A DNA stretch of 44,404 nt, from positions 1 to 44,404 of the IMG/VR virus record IMGVR_UViG_3300009537_000039; one strand, given 5' to 3'. Positions 26,496 through 37,268 of this stretch are shown here, in pieces. Each line of letters starts with the position of its first letter. Within the stretch, counting starts at the first letter, position 1. The notes beneath the pieces are model-generated. The model had not been told where the DNA came from and did not search any database. It saw nothing but the letters and a program-made list of their open reading frames with translations. Both the position numbers and the translations under genes were made by a program. Source of the DNA: a virus.

Positions 26496-27146
26496 CTACA
26501 GTCGTTGAGCGGCGAAGTGGGTCAACAAGTCCGCGTGGCGTCCGCGGAATCCAAGCGGGTGCAAGAGCTTGCGCAACGCCCGCAAGTCAGCTTGGGCAAG
26601 CTCTTCCGGGCTGCTGTACCGACTCACCAACGCCGCGTGGACGTCCTTGACTCGGTGCCAACCCTCTCCCCGTACCGTCAGTCTGCGCGCAACCTCAAGC
26701 CAGAAGGGCTCCTCGCCTAGCCAATCGTCCATAGTGGAGAAGCCCGCGTGGTCCGGCTCCCAATTGGCAACCCAAGAAGCCTGTCCGCGGGGGAGACAGG
26801 GAAGAAAAGCGGGCCGGATGCAGCGAATTCGGATGCAGGCGAGCTTGACCTGCTTGTCGCCCTGGAACTTGGAAGCGACGTACTCCATGGCGCCCTTGCC
26901 GCCGCCACAAAGCTCGACAAGGCGAAGCGCGGAGTCCGGGTCGGATCCCTGATAGGTCACGACGCCATCCACGTTGGCGACGCCGCTGGTACACTTGCGG
27001 CTCACGCCGCGGAACACGATCCGGTCCTCGGGCACCACACTCCACCAAGGGGCAGGTCTGCCCCGAGTGGCGCGGAACTCGGTCGTCTTCTCACCTCGCA
27101 GGATTCTCCCCAGGTGAGGCTCTCGCAGTACGGCCAGGTGGTCCAC
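26496..27146 (-). CDS. ASCH-like domain joined to an HhH-GPD glycosylase-like segment
   Basis: A 216-residue protein starting at GTG (27146) after GAGGGGG. The N-terminal part (HLAVLREPHLGRILRGEKTTEFRA, then P-E-D-R-I-V-F) resembles ASCH/PUA-type RNA- or nucleotide-binding domains. The C-terminal part (A-R-R-L-T, then S-S-P-E-E-L-A-Q-A-D-L-R-A-L-R-K-L-L, H-P-L-G-F-R-G-R-H-A-D-L-L) resembles the front half of HhH-GPD DNA glycosylases such as EndoIII/MutY, but the protein ends before the helix-hairpin-helix and catalytic Asp. It precedes TerS in the same operon. Nucleic-acid binding is inferred; catalysis is doubtful. Confidence 0.55.
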   Translation of the reverse strand: MDHLAVLREPHLGRILRGEKTTEFRATRGRPAPWWSVVPEDRIVFRGVSRKCTSGVANVDGVVTYQGSDPDSALRLVELCGGGKGAMEYVASKFQGDKQVKLACIRIRCIRPAFLPCLPRGQASWVANWEPDHAGFSTMDDWLGEEPFWLEVARRLTVRGEGWHRVKDVHAALVSRYSSPEELAQADLRALRKLLHPLGFRGRHADLLTHFAAQRL

Positions 27147-27518: not shown

Positions 27519-28247
27519 TCACCGCTTGCCCTTCTGCCACGGCCCGGACTCCAGGAGCCGGCCGGGTTTCTTCGGGCCTTGCCGTAGCTCGTAGCGCACG
27601 AGTCCGCAGCGGCAACGGGCTAAGACCTTTTCGACGTGCCCGAGGATCCATCGAACGTGGACCGCCTTGGTCTGCATCGGACTGTGACGATGGTTCACGC
27701 GTTCCTCGTTTCTTGCCCGAGAGCTGGCGATGCGCGCCCGAGACTTTCCAGAACGTGGGGGGAGGTCGGCAAACCCCGACAGGTTAATCCCAGGGAGGTC
27801 AACCTTGAGAGCGACGATCTCTAGGTCGATGTCGAGGCCGGCGGTGTGAGCGAGAAGGCTCTCCTCGGTGATGTCGCCGTGCTTGCTGGAGGCCATCATC
27901 GCCAACTCCGCGGCCTCCGCTTCGCTCTCCGCCTCGATCCACGAAACAGGAATCTCTGGAGGCACGCTCCAGCCTAGCTCTTCCAGGATTACCAGCGCGG
28001 GCACTCGGCCAGCCCCATCGAGAACGTGCTCATGTCCGGCCCAGACGAAGACCGGGAAGGCGAAGCCGGAGACAGCGATCGCGCGGCAGAGTTTCCGCAG
28101 ATCCCGTCCCTGGTCCTTGAGCCGGTTCCGTCGATAGCTTCGGAGCTCCGGCCACGGCACCGTCGGGCCGCCGGCCACCCGCACCCTGACTTCTCCAGGC
28201 TCCAGATCCGCGAGGTACTTCCTCACCGCTTCCGTTTGTGAGTGCAT
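27519..28247 (-). CDS. ParB N-terminal domain-like protein
   Basis: A 242-residue protein. The core is ParB/sulfiredoxin-like: Y-R-R-N-R-L-K-D-Q-G-R-D-L-R-K-L-C-R-A-I, A-F-P-V-F-V, then H-V-L-D-G-A-G-R (the G-x-x-R loop) and L-G-W-S-x-P-P-E-I-P-V-S-W-I-E-A, with S-S-K-H-G-D-I after the helix. In phages such proteins commonly stand before terminase genes; some ParB-like folds have nuclease or CTPase activity. No HTH typical of chromosomal ParB is obvious; the C-terminal 70 residues are basic with C-R-C-G-L-V. A role in DNA binding near the putative origin at 28366-28546 is inferred. Confidence 0.75.
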   Translation of the reverse strand: MHSQTEAVRKYLADLEPGEVRVRVAGGPTVPWPELRSYRRNRLKDQGRDLRKLCRAIAVSGFAFPVFVWAGHEHVLDGAGRVPALVILEELGWSVPPEIPVSWIEAESEAEAAELAMMASSKHGDITEESLLAHTAGLDIDLEIVALKVDLPGINLSGFADLPPRSGKSRARIASSRARNEERVNHRHSPMQTKAVHVRWILGHVEKVLARCRCGLVRYELRQGPKKPGRLLESGPWQKGKR

Positions 28248-28256
28248 TATGGTCTT

Positions 28257-28286
28257 ACTTTATCCTTCCAGGGATAAGAATGGCAA
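28257..28286 (-). promoter_or_regulatory. Possible promoter before the ParB-like gene
   Basis: On the minus strand TTGCCA (28286-28281) and TAAAGT (28262-28257) are separated by 18 bases. The -10 ends only 9 bases before the ATG, so a transcript would be nearly leaderless. The spacer contains a small inverted repeat, TATCC and GGATA around 6 bases (28261-28276). Weak evidence only. Confidence 0.3.
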
Positions 28287-28297
28287 CTCTGTAGTAT

Positions 28298-28326
28298 CGC
28301 GTGCGCATGCGCGCGCACGCGCGCGC
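28298..28326. other. Alternating purine-pyrimidine tract (Z-DNA-prone)
   Basis: For 29 bases every position alternates pyrimidine and purine, nearly all CG/CA steps, starting at the C of TATCGCG and ending before CTACTG. It lies between the ParB-like promoter and the CGGGACA repeats. Such sequences can adopt left-handed DNA under negative supercoiling. Confidence 0.6.
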
Positions 28327-28365
28327 TACTGCGTATAGATGAGTGAAAAGTATTGAAGTGAACTA

Positions 28366-28546
28366 AACGGGACAACGGGACAACGGGACAACACTAGGTT
28401 TAATGCAGGTGTTACGATATCCATGTCCCGTTTCTTTCGGGACAGTATGATGATATTAGCCATAAAATCAACTCAGCAATTCGTCAAGTCCCGTTAAAAA
28501 CGAGGATGTCCCGTTTTCTCCAGAACCGAAACGGGGAAACGGGACA
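28366..28546. repeat. Cluster of eight CGGGACA repeats, candidate replication origin
   Basis: The unit AACGGGACA occurs three times in tandem with 8-bp period (28366-28390). It then appears as an inverted pair forming a hairpin with a TTTCTTT loop (28424-28444), twice more inverted (28488-28495, 28507-28515) and once direct (28538-28546). Between copies lies an AT-rich stretch (28445-28487). The last three copies are inside the end of the primase gene. Iteron-like spacing, AT-rich DNA and neighbouring primase and ParB-like genes suggest an origin or a shared operator. The 28248-28467 gap holds no gene. Confidence 0.55.
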
Positions 28547-30720
28547 GAGGGGCAGAATCCGGCCCTACGTTCGAAAGCGTTGACGGCATCGACCAGCGCT
28601 GGGAGCCGATAGACGTTGGCTCGCCCGCTTGCGTCAGCTCTCACCGGGCGGTCGTCGACAAAGGCCTTGCTCCTCTGGGCCTCGGGGCACAGTTTCGCCA
28701 GCCTCCGGCCAAGTCGCCGATGCAGTTCGCCCTTCCTCCGGACACCCACGTTGTCGAGGTAGCGCCGCAGATCGTCCGCGAGTTCCTCGATGAAGACCAC
28801 GGTTGGTCCGTTCCACGGATCCGCCCCAGGTAGCCGGCCCTCCTCGAGGCATCGGAGCCACCAACGATCGACGTCGTCCATGGAATCGATCTTCTGGTCG
28901 GCCAGCGCAACCGTGGTTGGCACCGAGTCCCGCGGGTGCCAGTCGCCCAGATCTAGCCGGAGCATGTCATGGAGGAAGGCCGCCAGCCCACCTTCTTCGA
29001 GCTCCTGGTTGACAGCCCGCCACGCCGCCCGGTCTCGTTTGAGGCCTGGGTCCACGTCGAAGACGGCGAAGCGTCGCTCGTCGAGCCCTGTAGGCACCAG
29101 CCAATCGGCGTTCCCGTCGATGACCACGTGGATGCAGTTCCGGCCCTGGACGACCGGAGCATTCTTGCCCTCGTAGCTCAAGACTCGCTCGGTGAGCATC
29201 GCCCGAAGCACACCCTCCCCTTGATGGTCGCCGGCCCAGAAGGCTTCGTTGAAGTAGGCGATGACTTTGTCCCGGAGGTGCTCGTTGAAGCGCCCCACGA
29301 CCCGGTGCGTAGATGAAATCGGGATGCCGTGGTCCCCCGCGATCTCCAGGAGCGCTCGGGCGAAGGTGCCCTTGCCCGTCCCACGTTCCTCCGAGCGGAG
29401 CACCAGAGCAACCTCAGGGAGGTCCCATGGCCGCTGGAAGGCGTGAGCACACCAGCGAATGACGTAGCGGTAGCACTCCTCGTCGCCGGAGCAGAGTCGC
29501 TCGCCGATCATGTCGCGGAAGCGGTCCCACTTCCCCGCCTTCGGCTCCACCCGCCAGCCTGTCCAGAGATTGAGGTGTCCCGGGTGTTCCCGCTCGGGGT
29601 CGAAGACAGCCGATTTGTACTGTCGCCGATGAGAGTGGCCGAGCCACCAGCCGGCTATGTTGCGCGGCTTTCCGCTAGCCCCTGGAACGGTCACATTCTG
29701 GAACCAAGATCGAAAGGCCTGCTCGGAGGACGCTACCCACGCGGTGTGGCCTAGCACGGGGTCCCTCTCCTGCGACAGCACTCGGAAGGCGCCACCTATC
29801 CGGACGCATGCATAGCGGGAATTCATTCGTTCCAGCGGCGTCGCTCCGCCGTCCACGGGCACGGGCCCGAAGTCCTCGGACGGGTCGCTGCCTGGGATTT
29901 CCAGGCCGCGGTCGAGCAGGGCGCGAAACAGGGTGGCGACGGTGATGCCGTCCATGCGCTCACGGTGGAGGGAATCCCAGCGCCGGCCTACATCGACGCG
30001 AGCTCCGGCGTAGCCGGGGTCGGAGAGACTCCACTCCAGGAATTCTTCGCGGGCGAGGCCCCCGGTCCCGTGGTGGGCCGCCATCATGATCTCGAGCCAC
30101 TGGTCGTGCTCGCGAAACTCCTCGGCTGGCAGGAGCCGGAGGCAAGCGGAGAGGCGTTGCGGCGAGAGTTCACCGCCGCCCGAGGTGGCAACACGCTCAG
30201 CGCGGCGGAAGAGGGCGAGCAGCCGCTCCGGGGCCTCGGGACGTGTTGCCAGGTCAGTCCGGAGCTCGGACCACAGGTAGCGCTCGCCTGTCTCGGGATG
30301 GACGGACCCCGCGGCGACGACCTGACGGCCGACGCTCTTCATCTCGAAGCCCTTGTAGCTCTCCAGGGTGTCGACGATGCGTACGTCGGGGTCCTTTCGG
30401 AAGTAGTGATGCCGGCCACCGCCACCAGTCAAGACGGTCGGGGCATCGTCCAGGCGGAATCCGAGCTCCTCTTCGAGCTCTCGTGCAGGATTCCGACCTT
30501 CCTCGAAGTTGCGCGGATCGACGTCGACGACCAGGTCCTCCGGCCGTAGCCTCACGCCCGCGTTCCCGCCCGCGGCCATGTGCGAACGGACGCGGTCGTG
30601 CGGGTACTCGGTGACGCGCCAACCTGTCTCTGCCGGTCGCTTGCTGCGCGCTGGCAGCGGAATCAGCTCATAGGCCTCCGCTGCATAGGGCGCTAGTTCG
30701 TTCGGGTCGGGGCAGGTCAC
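28468..30720 (-). CDS. Primase-polymerase / SF3-type helicase fusion protein
   Basis: A 750-residue replication protein. The N-terminal prim-pol domain has V-V-D-V-D-P (D66, D68), T-G-G-G-G-R-H-H-Y-F (H104/H105) and F-E-M-K-S-V-G-R-Q-V-V-A-A-G-S-V-H-P; a PriCT-like region lies near 195-265; the C-terminal DUF5906/D5-like helicase has E-E-R-G-T-G-K-G-T (Walker A, 444-452), V-I-A-Y-F-N-E-A (Walker B, about 486-493) and the sensor region I-D-G-N-A-D-W-L-V-P. This resembles the primase-helicase of NrS-1-like phages. The GTG start overlaps the RHH gene's stop (GTGA). It would open DNA and prime synthesis for the family A polymerase. Confidence 0.88.
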   Translation of the reverse strand: MTCPDPNELAPYAAEAYELIPLPARSKRPAETGWRVTEYPHDRVRSHMAAGGNAGVRLRPEDLVVDVDPRNFEEGRNPARELEEELGFRLDDAPTVLTGGGGRHHYFRKDPDVRIVDTLESYKGFEMKSVGRQVVAAGSVHPETGERYLWSELRTDLATRPEAPERLLALFRRAERVATSGGGELSPQRLSACLRLLPAEEFREHDQWLEIMMAAHHGTGGLAREEFLEWSLSDPGYAGARVDVGRRWDSLHRERMDGITVATLFRALLDRGLEIPGSDPSEDFGPVPVDGGATPLERMNSRYACVRIGGAFRVLSQERDPVLGHTAWVASSEQAFRSWFQNVTVPGASGKPRNIAGWWLGHSHRRQYKSAVFDPEREHPGHLNLWTGWRVEPKAGKWDRFRDMIGERLCSGDEECYRYVIRWCAHAFQRPWDLPEVALVLRSEERGTGKGTFARALLEIAGDHGIPISSTHRVVGRFNEHLRDKVIAYFNEAFWAGDHQGEGVLRAMLTERVLSYEGKNAPVVQGRNCIHVVIDGNADWLVPTGLDERRFAVFDVDPGLKRDRAAWRAVNQELEEGGLAAFLHDMLRLDLGDWHPRDSVPTTVALADQKIDSMDDVDRWWLRCLEEGRLPGADPWNGPTVVFIEELADDLRRYLDNVGVRRKGELHRRLGRRLAKLCPEAQRSKAFVDDRPVRADASGRANVYRLPALVDAVNAFERRAGFCPSVPFPRFGSGENGTSSFLTGLDELLS

Positions 30721-31006: not shown

Positions 31007-31405
31007 ATGTCGGTCGACCAGTTCATGGAGAACGTGCTCAAGGGATTCGAAGCCCTGCACACGAGGCTTGGGGCGATCGAGGCCAAGCTCTCCGGCGCTG
31101 AGGCAGCGCCCCGCAACACCAAGAAAAAGAAGGCGGCCAAGACCGAAGAGGCAGCACCAGCCGCCCCAGCCGCCCCGGCCGCCAGCGACAGCCCCACACT
31201 CGACGATGCTCAGCGAGCGCTCCGCGAGCACGCTACTAAGTACGGCATCGAGAGCGCCGAGGCGCTCGTCGCCAGCTTCGGGGAGGCGAAGAAGTGCTCG
31301 GAGATCCCCGAGGACCAGCGAGCCGCTTTCATCGAGAAGGCGAGCGCCGGCAAAGTGGAAACCGCTCCGGCCGCTGAGGCCGAGAAGGGCGGGCTGTTCG
31401 GATGA
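31007..31405 (+). CDS. Hypothetical early protein with coiled coil and Ala/Pro linker
   Basis: A 132-residue protein, the first rightward gene, with GAAGGAGG before the ATG. The N-terminus (M-S-V-D-Q-F-M-E-N-V-L-K-G-F-E-A-L-H-T-R-L-G-A-I-E-A-K-L) predicts a coiled coil. A Lys-rich stretch and an Ala/Pro repeat linker follow. The C-terminal domain (D-D-A-Q-R-A-L-R-E-H-A-T-K-Y-G-I-E-S-A-E-A-L-V) is a small helical fold. The end, K-G-G-L-F-G, resembles the S-I-F-G end of the SSB at 33388-34005. A short leader motif upstream is also shared with that gene. Likely abundant, helping DNA transactions; function unknown. Confidence 0.7.
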   Translation: MSVDQFMENVLKGFEALHTRLGAIEAKLSGAEAAPRNTKKKKAAKTEEAAPAAPAAPAASDSPTLDDAQRALREHATKYGIESAEALVASFGEAKKCSEIPEDQRAAFIEKASAGKVETAPAAEAEKGGLFG

Positions 31406-34121: not shown

Positions 34122-37100
34122 ATGTACCACCTAGACTTTGAAACGCGTTCCGAGCTCGACATCAAGGTTGGCGCTTGGGCCTACTCCGTCCACCCGAGCA
34201 CGGAGGTTCTCTGCGTGTCCGTGGCGCTAGGAGACGAACGGCCTCTCGTCGTAACTTGCCTGGATGAATTCGAGGACGTGCACGATGCCTTCCAGCATCT
34301 CACCGACGAGGTCCATGTCCCTGTTGGGGCTCACAACGCCTTTTTCGAACGGTGCATCTGGGAGAACGTCATGGTGGCGCGGCACGGCCAGCCGCCGATT
34401 GACCCGGAGCGCTGGCGGTGCTCCGCGGCGCTCGCGGCGAACTTCGGGCTCCCTCGCAAGCTGGAGATGGTCGCCAAGGCCCTCGGGCTCGCGGAGCGCA
34501 AGGACGAGGAAGGTCACGCGCTCATGCTCCGAATGAGCAAGCCGCGCAAGCCGACGGCCGCGGAGCGTGGCAGGGGTCAGGCGGAGCCGGACCCTTTCTG
34601 CGGAGAATGCCGCGGCCTTGGGGTAGCCCCGAGCATCATAGGGCATCGCTGTTCGTGCACATCTCTTAACGGTCCTCTCTGGTATGGCTCCCGCGAGGAC
34701 CTGGAACGCCTCGCCGCTTACTGCGTGCAGGACGTAGTCGTTGAGCGCGAGATCACTCGGCGCCTCGGGGAGCTCTCCCCGATGGAGCTCGATGTCTGGC
34801 ACGCCGATCAAGCGGTGAACGCCTCGGGCGTGCCCGTCGATCTGGACCTCTGCCGCGGCGCGCTCAAGATCAAAGCCGAGCTCGACGCCCGGGCCAACGA
34901 GGAGCTCTGCGAGATCACTGGCGCCGGGAAGGGCGACAAGACGCTCCCGACGCGGCACACCCAACGCGACCGCATCGTCAAGTGGGTCCGGTCTTGCGGG
35001 TGGGAGCTCCCGAACGCTCAGAAGGAGACCCTCGACGAGGCGCTCGACGGCAAAGGGCTCAAGCGCATTGGTGGAGGGAAGCGCGAGGAGGTCACTGGCT
35101 CGGTGCGGCGCGTCCTGGAGATTCGCCGCGCAGCCTCCAAGGCGAGCACGGCGAAGTATCAGGCGGCGATCGACCGGGCGACACGAGATCGGTGGTCTAT
35201 CGGACCCAACGGGCCACAGGGAGCCATCCCAGACCAGGATCGTGTTCGCGGCTCGCTCATCTACTACGGCGCCCACACCGGCAGGTGGGCGGGCTCGGGG
35301 CTGCAGACTCAGAACATGCCGCGGGACAGCCCCCCGAAAGGCGAGTACGAGTTCGCCTGCAGTCTGGTGTCGGCCGGAGACCTGCAGCGGCTTGAATTCT
35401 TCTACCCGGAGCCCATGGCGATTCTCAAGTCCTGCGTCCGAGGGATCATCCGAGCGCCGGGCGGCAAGGTGTTCCTGGTCGGCGACTACTCTGCCATCGA
35501 AGCGCGGGTAGTCTTCTGGCTGGCCGGGGAACTACGCGGGCTCTCGCTCTACCGGGCCTATGACAAGGCGCCACGAGAAGCGCTGGAGCCCTACTGCTGG
35601 ATGGCGTCCAGGATTTTCGGGCGCGACGGCCTGGAGATCCAGCGGGCCAACCGCGACGGCGACAAGGAGGGCGAGGAGCAACGCTTCGTCGGCAAGTCTT
35701 CGGTCCTCGGCTGCGGCTTCGGGCTAGGGCCGCGACGCTTCCGAGATCAGTACGACGTCGCAGGCAAGCTGGCCAAGCTGGCGGTGAAGGCATACCGCGA
35801 GAGCTTCCCTGCCGTGCCGGACATGTGGACCGAGCTCGACGAGGCGTCCGTCGAGGCGGTGCGAGGCAGCGCTCGGCCGATCCCGACCTGCGGAGGGCGC
35901 ATCTTGTGGGGGATGAGGGACGGCTTCCTCTGCGCGCGTCTCCCCTCGGGCCGGATGCTTCGCTACCCCGAGCCCCGCGTCGGTTTGAACCGCGTGACCA
36001 TCGAGACGGTTGACGGTGAAGAGCGTACCTTCGAGCGCATCGCTGTCAACTACAAGACAGCGGACAAAGGCCAGTGGCGCCGGACGTGGACGTGGGGAGG
36101 GACGCTCTGCATCGAGGAGGGCACGCTGGTAGTAACCGACCACGGTCCCGTGCCGATCGAGAGAGTCGAGCCCTCCATGCTGGTGTGGGATGGTAAGGAG
36201 TGGGTGACCCACTCCGGGTCGATCTTGCAGGGCTACAAGGACACAGTCGAAGCCTACGGCGTCCGTATGACGCCTGACCACAGGGTTCTCACTGTCGAAG
36301 GGTGGAAGCGTGAATCCGAGAGCAAGGGACTTGACCGGGCTCCGTGCCGGCTACCTGACGGCTACTCGTTACGCGGGGAGCAATGGGAGGAGATCGCTCT
36401 GGCTCCTCCGGTGCGACTGCGGAAACACTCTGGTTCGAGAGGCCTCAGAGTTCATGAAGTCCGTGAAGCGCAAGCGTCGATCTTCCTGCGGCTGCATTCT
36501 CTCCAAGACCTTGAGCGAGTACCGCACGACGCACGGCATGACGAAGCACTCGGCCTTCGCGGTCTGGTCGTCTATGAAGCGGCGCTGCCTCGACCCCTCG
36601 CACCCGGCGTACAAGAACTATGGTGGCCGTGGCATCTCGGTGTGCGAGCGCTGGCGCGACTCCTTCGAGAACTTCTGGAGCGACATGGGCGGGACCTACG
36701 AGCGCGGGCTCTGCATCGACAGAGTCGACAACGACGGGGACTACACCCCGGAGAACTGCCGCTGGACCACCTACCAGGAGCAGGCACGCAACCGTCGAGG
36801 AACCGTCTTGATCCCTACGCCGTACGGACCTATGCACATGGCGGATGCCGCGACTCGGAGCGGAATCTCTCGTTCAACGCTCTACTACCGAAGAGACCGG
36901 GGAGTGCCCGCGGATCGGATGTTCGATCCGCCCGACCCGTCTACGACCTGGTAGACTGTGGGCCTCGCCGTCGCTTCGTGGTCTTGGATAAACGAGGCAA
37001 GCCGCTGATCGTCCACAACTGCGAGAACGTGGTGCAAGCCGTCGCCCGGGACCTACTCGCTGACGCGCTGGTCCGTTCGCACAAGCTACTCGCGCCTCAC

Positions 37101-37268
37101 GCTCATCCGATCGCGCACTCTCACGACGAGTTGATCCTGGAGATGCACGAGAGCATGACCGAGTACACCCCGGAGTGGTTCGAACGATTCCTCTGCGTGA
37201 AGCCCGCGTGGGCCGACGGACTGCCCGTGGCGGCAGAGGCATGGAGCGGGCCGAGGTACAGGAAATGA
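34122..37268 (+). CDS. DNA polymerase (family A) precursor with intein
   Basis: A 1048-residue precursor. N-terminal 3'-5' exonuclease: H-L-D-F-E-T-R-S (D5, E7), G-A-H-N-A-F-F-E and Y-C-V-Q-D-V-V-V-E. Polymerase motif A: G-D-Y-S-A-I-E-A-R (D455); motif C: H-S-H-D-E-L-I-L-E (D1002 of the precursor). Residues 663-966 are an intein inserted in T-W-G-G-T-L|C-E-N-V-V-Q-A-V-A-R-D-L-L; splicing gives a 744-residue enzyme. The ATG follows a tRNA-like element by three bases and has no ribosome binding site, yet the exonuclease motif begins at residue 4, so this start is right. Downstream genes overlap (ATGA). Confidence 0.9.
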   Translation: MYHLDFETRSELDIKVGAWAYSVHPSTEVLCVSVALGDERPLVVTCLDEFEDVHDAFQHLTDEVHVPVGAHNAFFERCIWENVMVARHGQPPIDPERWRCSAALAANFGLPRKLEMVAKALGLAERKDEEGHALMLRMSKPRKPTAAERGRGQAEPDPFCGECRGLGVAPSIIGHRCSCTSLNGPLWYGSREDLERLAAYCVQDVVVEREITRRLGELSPMELDVWHADQAVNASGVPVDLDLCRGALKIKAELDARANEELCEITGAGKGDKTLPTRHTQRDRIVKWVRSCGWELPNAQKETLDEALDGKGLKRIGGGKREEVTGSVRRVLEIRRAASKASTAKYQAAIDRATRDRWSIGPNGPQGAIPDQDRVRGSLIYYGAHTGRWAGSGLQTQNMPRDSPPKGEYEFACSLVSAGDLQRLEFFYPEPMAILKSCVRGIIRAPGGKVFLVGDYSAIEARVVFWLAGELRGLSLYRAYDKAPREALEPYCWMASRIFGRDGLEIQRANRDGDKEGEEQRFVGKSSVLGCGFGLGPRRFRDQYDVAGKLAKLAVKAYRESFPAVPDMWTELDEASVEAVRGSARPIPTCGGRILWGMRDGFLCARLPSGRMLRYPEPRVGLNRVTIETVDGEERTFERIAVNYKTADKGQWRRTWTWGGTLCIEEGTLVVTDHGPVPIERVEPSMLVWDGKEWVTHSGSILQGYKDTVEAYGVRMTPDHRVLTVEGWKRESESKGLDRAPCRLPDGYSLRGEQWEEIALAPPVRLRKHSGSRGLRVHEVREAQASIFLRLHSLQDLERVPHDARHDEALGLRGLVVYEAALPRPLAPGVQELWWPWHLGVRALARLLRELLERHGRDLRARALHRQSRQRRGLHPGELPLDHLPGAGTQPSRNRLDPYAVRTYAHGGCRDSERNLSFNALLPKRPGSARGSDVRSARPVYDLVDCGPRRRFVVLDKRGKPLIVHNCENVVQAVARDLLADALVRSHKLLAPHAHPIAHSHDELILEMHESMTEYTPEWFERFLCVKPAWADGLPVAAEAWSGPRYRK
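36108..37019 (+). other. Intein in DNA polymerase, with foreign-frame insertion
   Basis: The 304-residue segment starts with Cys1 (C-I-E-E-G-T-L-V-V-T-D-H-G-P-V-P-I), has the T-P-D-H-R-V-L-T block (splicing block B) and G-W near residue 60, and ends V-Y-D-L-V-D-C-G (block F) and L-I-V-H-N (block G) before Cys+1. The middle, about 215 residues, is Arg/Leu/Pro-rich and has no endonuclease motif in the polymerase frame. It is the shadow of an HNH gene in another frame (36310-36954). A working Hint domain only needs the two ends. Splicing is inferred from motifs. Confidence 0.85.
36310..36954 (+). CDS. HNH homing endonuclease nested out of frame in the intein
   Basis: A 214-residue HNH endonuclease in the +1 frame relative to the polymerase, fully inside the intein. 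Zinc ribbon Cys at 35, 37, 60, 62 (R-C-D-C-G ... S-C-G-C); K-N-Y-G-G-R-G-I-S-V-C-E-R-W; S-F-E-N-F-W-S-D-M-G; I-D-R-V-D-N-D-G and N-C-R-W-T-T (HNH core); and a C-terminal helix-turn-helix-like G-P-M-H-M-A-D-A-A-T-R-S-G-I-S-R-S-T-L-Y-Y-R-R. The start is GTG (36310) without an obvious ribosome binding site. It is full length for phage HNH proteins. Overlap keeps both frames open for 645 bases. Confidence 0.82.
   Translation: MNPRARDLTGLRAGYLTATRYAGSNGRRSLWLLRCDCGNTLVREASEFMKSVKRKRRSSCGCILSKTLSEYRTTHGMTKHSAFAVWSSMKRRCLDPSHPAYKNYGGRGISVCERWRDSFENFWSDMGGTYERGLCIDRVDNDGDYTPENCRWTTYQEQARNRRGTVLIPTPYGPMHMADAATRSGISRSTLYYRRDRGVPADRMFDPPDPSTTW

Follow-up and report, generated by a model that had tools for sequence, protein, structure and literature searches.

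Satellite phage P4 has an element, crr, whose annotation gives it as a cis requirement of replication. It starts 45 bp past the stop codon of the gene for the alpha primase; ten type 1 repeats of 8 bp (GGTGAACA or variants of it), some in one orientation and some in the other, lie in crr, and six more in ori. Excerpts of PMC7581432 state that an iteron origin located directly downstream of the helicase gene is recognised by the C-terminal domain of the Rep helicases of SaPIs; for Cch2, the same excerpts describe binding of this domain to a putative downstream origin and a requirement of the direct repeats for Cch2 binding. The NrS-1 polymerase, in turn, primes at an 8-nt recognition sequence (excerpts of PMC7102993 and PMC8718748), of which the NrS-1 genome contains only two copies, one per strand (excerpt of PMC7102993). 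Excerpts of a paper on Mesyanzhinovviridae (PMC11946847) describe the primase-helicase and contain no replication origin, and those of PMC7145576 deal with an initiator of a different type, RepA_N. In a limited search of the open-access literature, we found neither a described origin for the primase-helicase phage family considered here nor a report linking GGGACA to a phage replication origin.

Herein, we describe a repeat cluster from the virus record IMGVR_UViG_3300009537_000039, which was analysed as a whole (positions 1 to 44,404, 44,404 bp; hereafter, the window). The cluster is a real, non-random element. It is probably a phage replication site, either the origin or a crr-like auxiliary site needed by the origin. 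Very probably, the site is of the P4/SaPI type, a layout already known from satellite phage P4, of which the window would be a further example.

The repeat cluster and its gene neighbourhood

Nine sites of the AACGGGACA type, direct and inverted, compose the cluster at 28366-28546 (Table 1). Taking AACGGGACA as the unit, six sites are exact, one has one mismatch and two have two mismatches; a head-to-tail triplet with an 8-bp period is followed by lone sites on both strands. A sequence-only reading of the window had reported eight units within 181 bp, and its coordinates were exact: seven copies are perfect CGGGACA (within 28368-28546), and the copy ending in T accounts for the count of eight, the ninth site being more degenerate. 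Its placement of three copies in the end of the primase coding sequence is likewise borne out by the copy ending in T and the two exact sites inside the frame.

Table 1. Coordinates of the features discussed, in window numbering
Feature	Positions	Strand
Three head-to-tail iterons AACGGGACA, 8-bp period	28366..28390	+
Iteron, exact, inverted	28424..28432	-
Iteron TTCGGGACA, core is exact CGGGACA	28436..28444	+
Iteron AACGGGACT, one mismatch, copy ending in T, within primase reading frame	28487..28495	-
Iteron, exact, inverted, within primase reading frame	28507..28515	-
Degenerate iteron AACGGGGAA, two mismatches, within primase reading frame	28530..28538	+
Iteron, exact, within primase reading frame	28538..28546	+
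AT-richer inter-iteron DNA, candidate unwinding region (putative function)	28391..28486	
Alternating purine-pyrimidine run, 29 bp	28298..28326	
Primase-helicase (Prim-Pol, PriCT-2, DUF5906 ATPase, C-terminal winged helix), proposed initiator	28468..30720	-
Coding DNA of C-terminal winged-helix region (about residues 612-719), proposed iteron-binding domain (putative binding)	28564..28887	-
Coding DNA of C-terminal tail (residues about 725-750), overlapping iterons	28468..28548	-

The commonest 7-mer of the 184-bp core is present in seven copies, and in 2000 dinucleotide shuffles of this core the commonest 7-mer never exceeded three. Among 2211 segments of 184 bp (step 20) taken over the 44 kb, five or more copies were found only in the seven segments overlapping the cluster. 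In the whole window, CGGGACA occurs 17 times against 10.2 expected, the ten copies outside the cluster being scattered. The core has a GC content of 46%, compared with about 60-68% in 1-kb blocks of the window, and A+T amounts to 68% at 28441-28480, between iterons. A search of 28150-28650 for intrinsic terminators (a GC-rich hairpin plus a T run) gave none, and a promoter scan at the cluster gave weak promoter-like matches only. The 44,404-bp record, possibly a fragment, showed no second repeat cluster that might be a separate ori. GC skew, proposed by the sequence-only reading as a check, has a local minimum at 31,235, away from the cluster. The 29-bp run listed in Table 1 is the window's only alternating purine-pyrimidine run of at least 14 bp; it might be an accessory element, although such a role is uncertain. 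As a separate observation, across 81 loci including the window, alternating runs of at least 16 bp are about four times denser at -100 to +700 of the primase stop codon (9 runs, 0.142 per kb) than elsewhere (19 runs, 0.037 per kb), and CACGTGCGCGCGTGTA-like runs similar to that of the window are found in L046, L050, L067 and L071.

A gene for a 750-residue primase-helicase has its stop codon within the cluster. This protein exceeded the Pfam gathering scores for PF09250 (65.8 bits), PF08707 (49.9 bits) and PF19263 (54.9 bits) and matched PHROG 1156 (DNA primase) at E 4e-87; with the P4-family primase model TIGR01613 it scored 19.0 bits, below the curated cut-off of 108.7. On the far side of the cluster there are a gene for a 242-residue ParB-like protein, further genes and, about 2 kb beyond the ParB-like gene, the large terminase. 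The ParB-like protein has weak PHROG matches (phrog_8071, E 6.7e-5; phrog_498, E 7e-8), and no ParB domain was found in it in Pfam, where nothing exceeded the cut-off, or in NCBIfam. The gene calls made from the sequence alone hold for both neighbours, for the ParB-like one weakly. The other side of the primase is occupied by a DUF2800 exonuclease-type gene and a family A DNA polymerase gene, transcribed away from it, and an Arc-like small protein (phrog_3431, E 0.006) is encoded just upstream of the primase.

Two side observations concern genes of this neighbourhood. The family A DNA polymerase (34122-37268, plus strand) contains an intein-like insert at about residues 662-966, which starts with CIEEGT, ends with VHN before C and is flanked on both sides by DNA polymerase matches; the Pfam scan reported no intein domain in it. 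The protein encoded at 26496-27146 (minus strand) has a sub-threshold match to the HhH-GPD base-excision-repair domain.

The C-terminal end of the primase-helicase

Using 42 family sequences, we modelled the structure of the whole protein (mean pLDDT 87). Its last domain is a winged helix, made up of helices 644-657 and 666-677 and of strands 682-687 and 700-706; past it, residues 732-750 are predicted to be a disordered tail, their pLDDT being below 50. According to the coordinates, residues 725-745 are those encoded by the in-gene iterons, and they belong mostly to this tail. Most relatives lack the tail, ending near its start; in the nearest one, L019, the C-terminal end reads DELLR against DELLS in the window, suggestive of an insertion of about 20 residues. 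These features support the earlier suggestion of a protein end shaped by the site.

Modelled alone, the C-terminal domain had a pLDDT of 86. It aligned with the RFX DNA-binding domain (Z 6.6, rmsd 3.3, 76 aligned residues) and with origin recognition complex and Cdt1 domains (Z about 5), middling scores that indicate the fold class only. Foldseek with this domain alone returned nothing at E 0.001 and the replication terminator protein at E 0.1; PDB 1KA8, which we take to be the P4 origin-binding domain, was absent among the 50 VIA-align matches listed, and a profile search of solved structures found nothing.

Clusters at the 3' ends of related and unrelated helicase genes

When viral contigs were searched with the window primase as a single sequence, nothing was found, nor did megablast of window positions 20000-44404 match any phage; an alignment-based search found relatives. 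The best named ones are phages at 35-42% identity, and several of the relative records that we opened are filed under Mesyanzhinovviridae. Clusters were scored in 350-bp frames along each locus, using 8-mers with one mismatch allowed and at least two copies per strand. Applied as a positive control to the whole P4 genome, this scorer ranked crr first (11.3), the ori cluster (7.05) coming below another region at 7.58. After discarding loci with no stop codon found, with less than 350 bp downstream or with at least 90% identity over at least 1500 bp, 61 of 82 loci were kept, or 60 after leaving out the window.

The best two-orientation cluster lay at -250 to +700 of the primase stop codon in 20 of these 60 relatives, against 8.47 expected (p 1.2e-4); it lay elsewhere in 40, and 11 had a cluster scoring at least 7 outside this interval. 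None of the shuffled loci (n = 61) reached 7, the best score being 5.0. The words of the 3'-end clusters differ from relative to relative: GGTCCGAG in ZQG1, TGGACAGG in L077, AAGACAGA in L066, GATAACTG in L082 and GGYTTAGA in YuA-like loci. L019 (46% identity, gene order partly different) has no CGGGACA cluster, only 7 scattered copies in its 53-kb record, and no strong cluster in the 8.2 kb scored. The comparison with close relatives, proposed by the sequence-only reading as a refuting test, speaks both ways: the nearest relative lacks the cluster, and distant relatives carry clusters of other words at the same place.

Clusters at other positions were also observed. Two RDJL phages (L060, L073) have a two-orientation GCTATAC cluster with a score above 11 at about +2.2 kb of the primase stop codon, and maybe the origin has moved away from the primase in these phages. 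In L063, L069 and L070, two-orientation clusters (TCAAATTA, GTTGGAAA) are found upstream, at about -2.9 kb of the stop codon.

Word-independent scoring was also carried out for two other helicase families. Relatives of the AAA_25-type locus L144 numbered 64, of which 27 remained (2 short, 35 redundant; the query's own contig included); L144 was itself drawn from the GGGACA scan described below, and it is only for its relatives that the choice did not depend on the word. The best cluster was at the gene's 3' end in 24 of the 27 loci, against 7.55 expected (p 2.5e-11), and 25 scored at least 7 there. Such evidence suggests a simple rule, namely that inspecting the 3' end of the helicase gene would yield candidate origins in many phages. 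The words included GGGACAT, CCGGACA, GCGTAACA, GCGCAACA and GCGTCACA; in locus L559 the word was ACGGGACA, identical to that of the window, and a minority (ATGCGGTA) fell outside the shared pattern. Rhizobium phage 16-3 and RHph_X2_25 have GCGTGACA clusters from the stop codon onward. Among six named AAA_25-type phages, three had a 3' cluster (L499, L500, L503) and three had none (L498, L501, L502). Inside the repA gene of L498 (MW202711.1), about -1.3 kb of its stop codon, we observed a dense two-orientation TACGTTCA cluster with a score of 13.6. For D5-type relatives of L159 (80 reduced to 17, 59 being without the helicase part and 4 redundant; own contig included), the best cluster was at the 3' end of the D5/DUF5906 gene in 10 of 17 loci, against 4.42 expected (p 0.004), with words including ATGACGGA and TGTAACCG.

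The GGGACA word

At least 119 viral stretches carry three nearby copies of CGGGACA. Among the matches listed, 66 of 119 had at least two GGGACA per strand within 250 bp, compared with 0 of 120 in two orientations for the reversed control word and 5 of 120 for a second, scrambled word. The 119 loci gave 102 ORFs, of which 93 remained after redundancy removal; the 120 loci of the reversed word gave 76 ORFs, reduced to 69 and, with two very long ones (L335, L346) left out, to 67. The 93 cluster ORFs included, among the matches listed, 40 AAA_25, 10 Prim-Pol, 5 DnaB N-terminal, 5 DUF5906 and 3 VapE-like proteins. Of the control ORFs, 30 of 67 were collagen-like, none was listed for AAA_25, and DUF5906 and D5_N were matched by one each. 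In the largest linked group (64 ORFs), most clusters either overlap the end of the gene or have their start no more than about 50 bp from the stop codon. In the linked loci L143, L159, L187, L246 and L253, they start 6-38 bp after the gene, and all three of those scanned match DUF5906. In a 16-member group, the repeats lie inside the gene and run one way in 15 of 16 members, an arrangement that can be likened to the lambda O iterons. This group, L117 and 15 related loci, has genes of about 236-358 codons, and L117 matches DnaD-like helicase loaders. A pattern scan of genome contigs returned many actinobacterial chromosomes among the matches listed.

It is tempting to suppose, and we do so only tentatively, that GGGACA (more widely, C-G-N-N-A-C-A) is an origin-recognition word common to unrelated phage replication helicases: RepA-like AAA_25, VapE-like, D5/DUF5906 and, in the in-gene one-way form, DnaD-like loaders. 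The C-terminal domain of the window primase has no sequence similarity to P4 alpha (hhalign probability below 1%), and profile comparisons of C-terminal domains gave nothing for the window against the AAA_25, VapE-like, P4 and L169 groups, for AAA_25 against VapE-like and P4, or for VapE-like against P4; homology that could be detected thus offers no explanation for a shared word. Helicases of this kind may have come to a common word by convergence, through the exchange of a small domain or because of a third factor common to them. If the supposition is true, the shared word implies convergence on, or exchange of, one origin code, and the word changes fast, in step with the C-terminal domain of the initiator; the choice of origin sequence by phage initiators would then become directly testable.

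Alternative explanations

A cluster without function, arising by chance, from low complexity or as a coding repeat, might be suspected from the ten scattered CGGGACA in this GC-rich genome. We consider it extremely unlikely in view of the 2000 shuffles, the uniqueness of the cluster in the window, the presence of both orientations and the extension beyond the gene. Another reading is that of a partition centromere bound by the adjacent ParB-like protein, which the sequence-only reading had named as a possible binder and whose PHROG matches speak for such a role. However, of 80 related loci, L019 alone has a homologue of this protein, and no repeat cluster is found there; the lack of a ParB DNA-binding domain in Pfam and NCBIfam points the same way. 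Binding by this protein thus appears unlikely, and a centromere very unlikely.

The repeats could also be a packaging initiation (pac) site bound by the small terminase. In five relatives, the primase gene is followed by about 490-700 bp of noncoding DNA and then by small-terminase, terminase or hypothetical genes, the small terminase being annotated there in DLP4, DoCa5 and AAT-1; moreover, phages of the family are said, in excerpts of PMC11946847, to package by headful. Still, clusters are located at the 3' ends of primase or helicase genes in other families too (AAA_25, 24/27; D5, 10/17), the element at the same place in P4 is annotated as required for replication, and the next gene in the window is the ParB-like one, the large terminase being farther on; we regard a pac site as unlikely. 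Improbable, too, is a transcriptional operator at which a phage repressor would control the ParB-like gene or the primase operon. The cluster does lie upstream of the ParB-like gene with a weak promoter-like match in between (28286-28257, 9/12), and the Arc-like protein is encoded nearby. Nevertheless, nine sites across 180 bp, three or four of them in the end of the upstream gene, fit an operator poorly, the sites start about 80 bp upstream of the putative promoter, the Arc-like protein had no tblastn homologue in 80 related loci, and the parallel with P4 crr argues against it. Overall, of the two roles offered by the sequence-only reading, origin or operator, the origin is favoured by position, architecture, relatives and the P4 control, while the operator lost ground with the absence of a terminator-like site and the weakness of the promoter-like matches.

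Proposed role and comparison with known systems

With a replication site as the preferred explanation, the iterons are most likely bound by the primase-helicase's own C-terminal winged helix and not by the ParB-like neighbour. We speculate that the primase-helicase would bind the iterons through this domain, assemble as a ring on the site and open the AT-richer DNA between the iterons, after which its Prim-Pol and ATPase domains would prime and unwind. In this way, it would start replication or support it as P4 crr does. A site located at the 3' end of its initiator's gene stays together with the initiator, and the codons of the tail double as putative binding sites. The window gives a testable candidate origin for this family of primase-helicase phages.

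Among known systems, the NrS-1 Prim-Pol polymerase provides, with its C-terminal region, the best fold match of the whole window protein (E 2e-15), which also matches AsfvPrimPol; unlike the window, its 8-nt recognition sites do not form an iteron cluster. The AAA_25 (RepA-like) phage primase-helicases, such as p101 of Rhizobium phage 16-3, share with the window two-orientation 8-mers from the stop codon onward, phage 16-3 having 13 copies of AGCGTGAC-type sites. However, their ATPase belongs to another family, and their C-terminal domain has no detectable sequence similarity to that of the window.

The SaPI Rep and Cch2 systems, as described in excerpts of PMC7581432, resemble the window, where both origin and DNA-binding domain are putative, in an origin directly 3' of the helicase gene, in short iterons and in a C-terminal DNA-binding domain. 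In addition, the whole fold of the window protein matches the SaPI5 primase-helicase (E 5e-9). The differences from SaPI/SCC concern the repeat sequence and the type of element, the window being the record of a tailed phage that has genes for terminase and DNA polymerase. Finally, P4, with its crr, ori and alpha primase-helicase, differs in its word (GGTGAACA against ACGGGACA in the window), in having a crr of two 120-bp copies and, apart from it, an ori cluster, and in repeats that start past the gene end, whereas some of those in the window are inside the gene. Both have 8-bp two-orientation repeats directly 3' of a primase-helicase gene.
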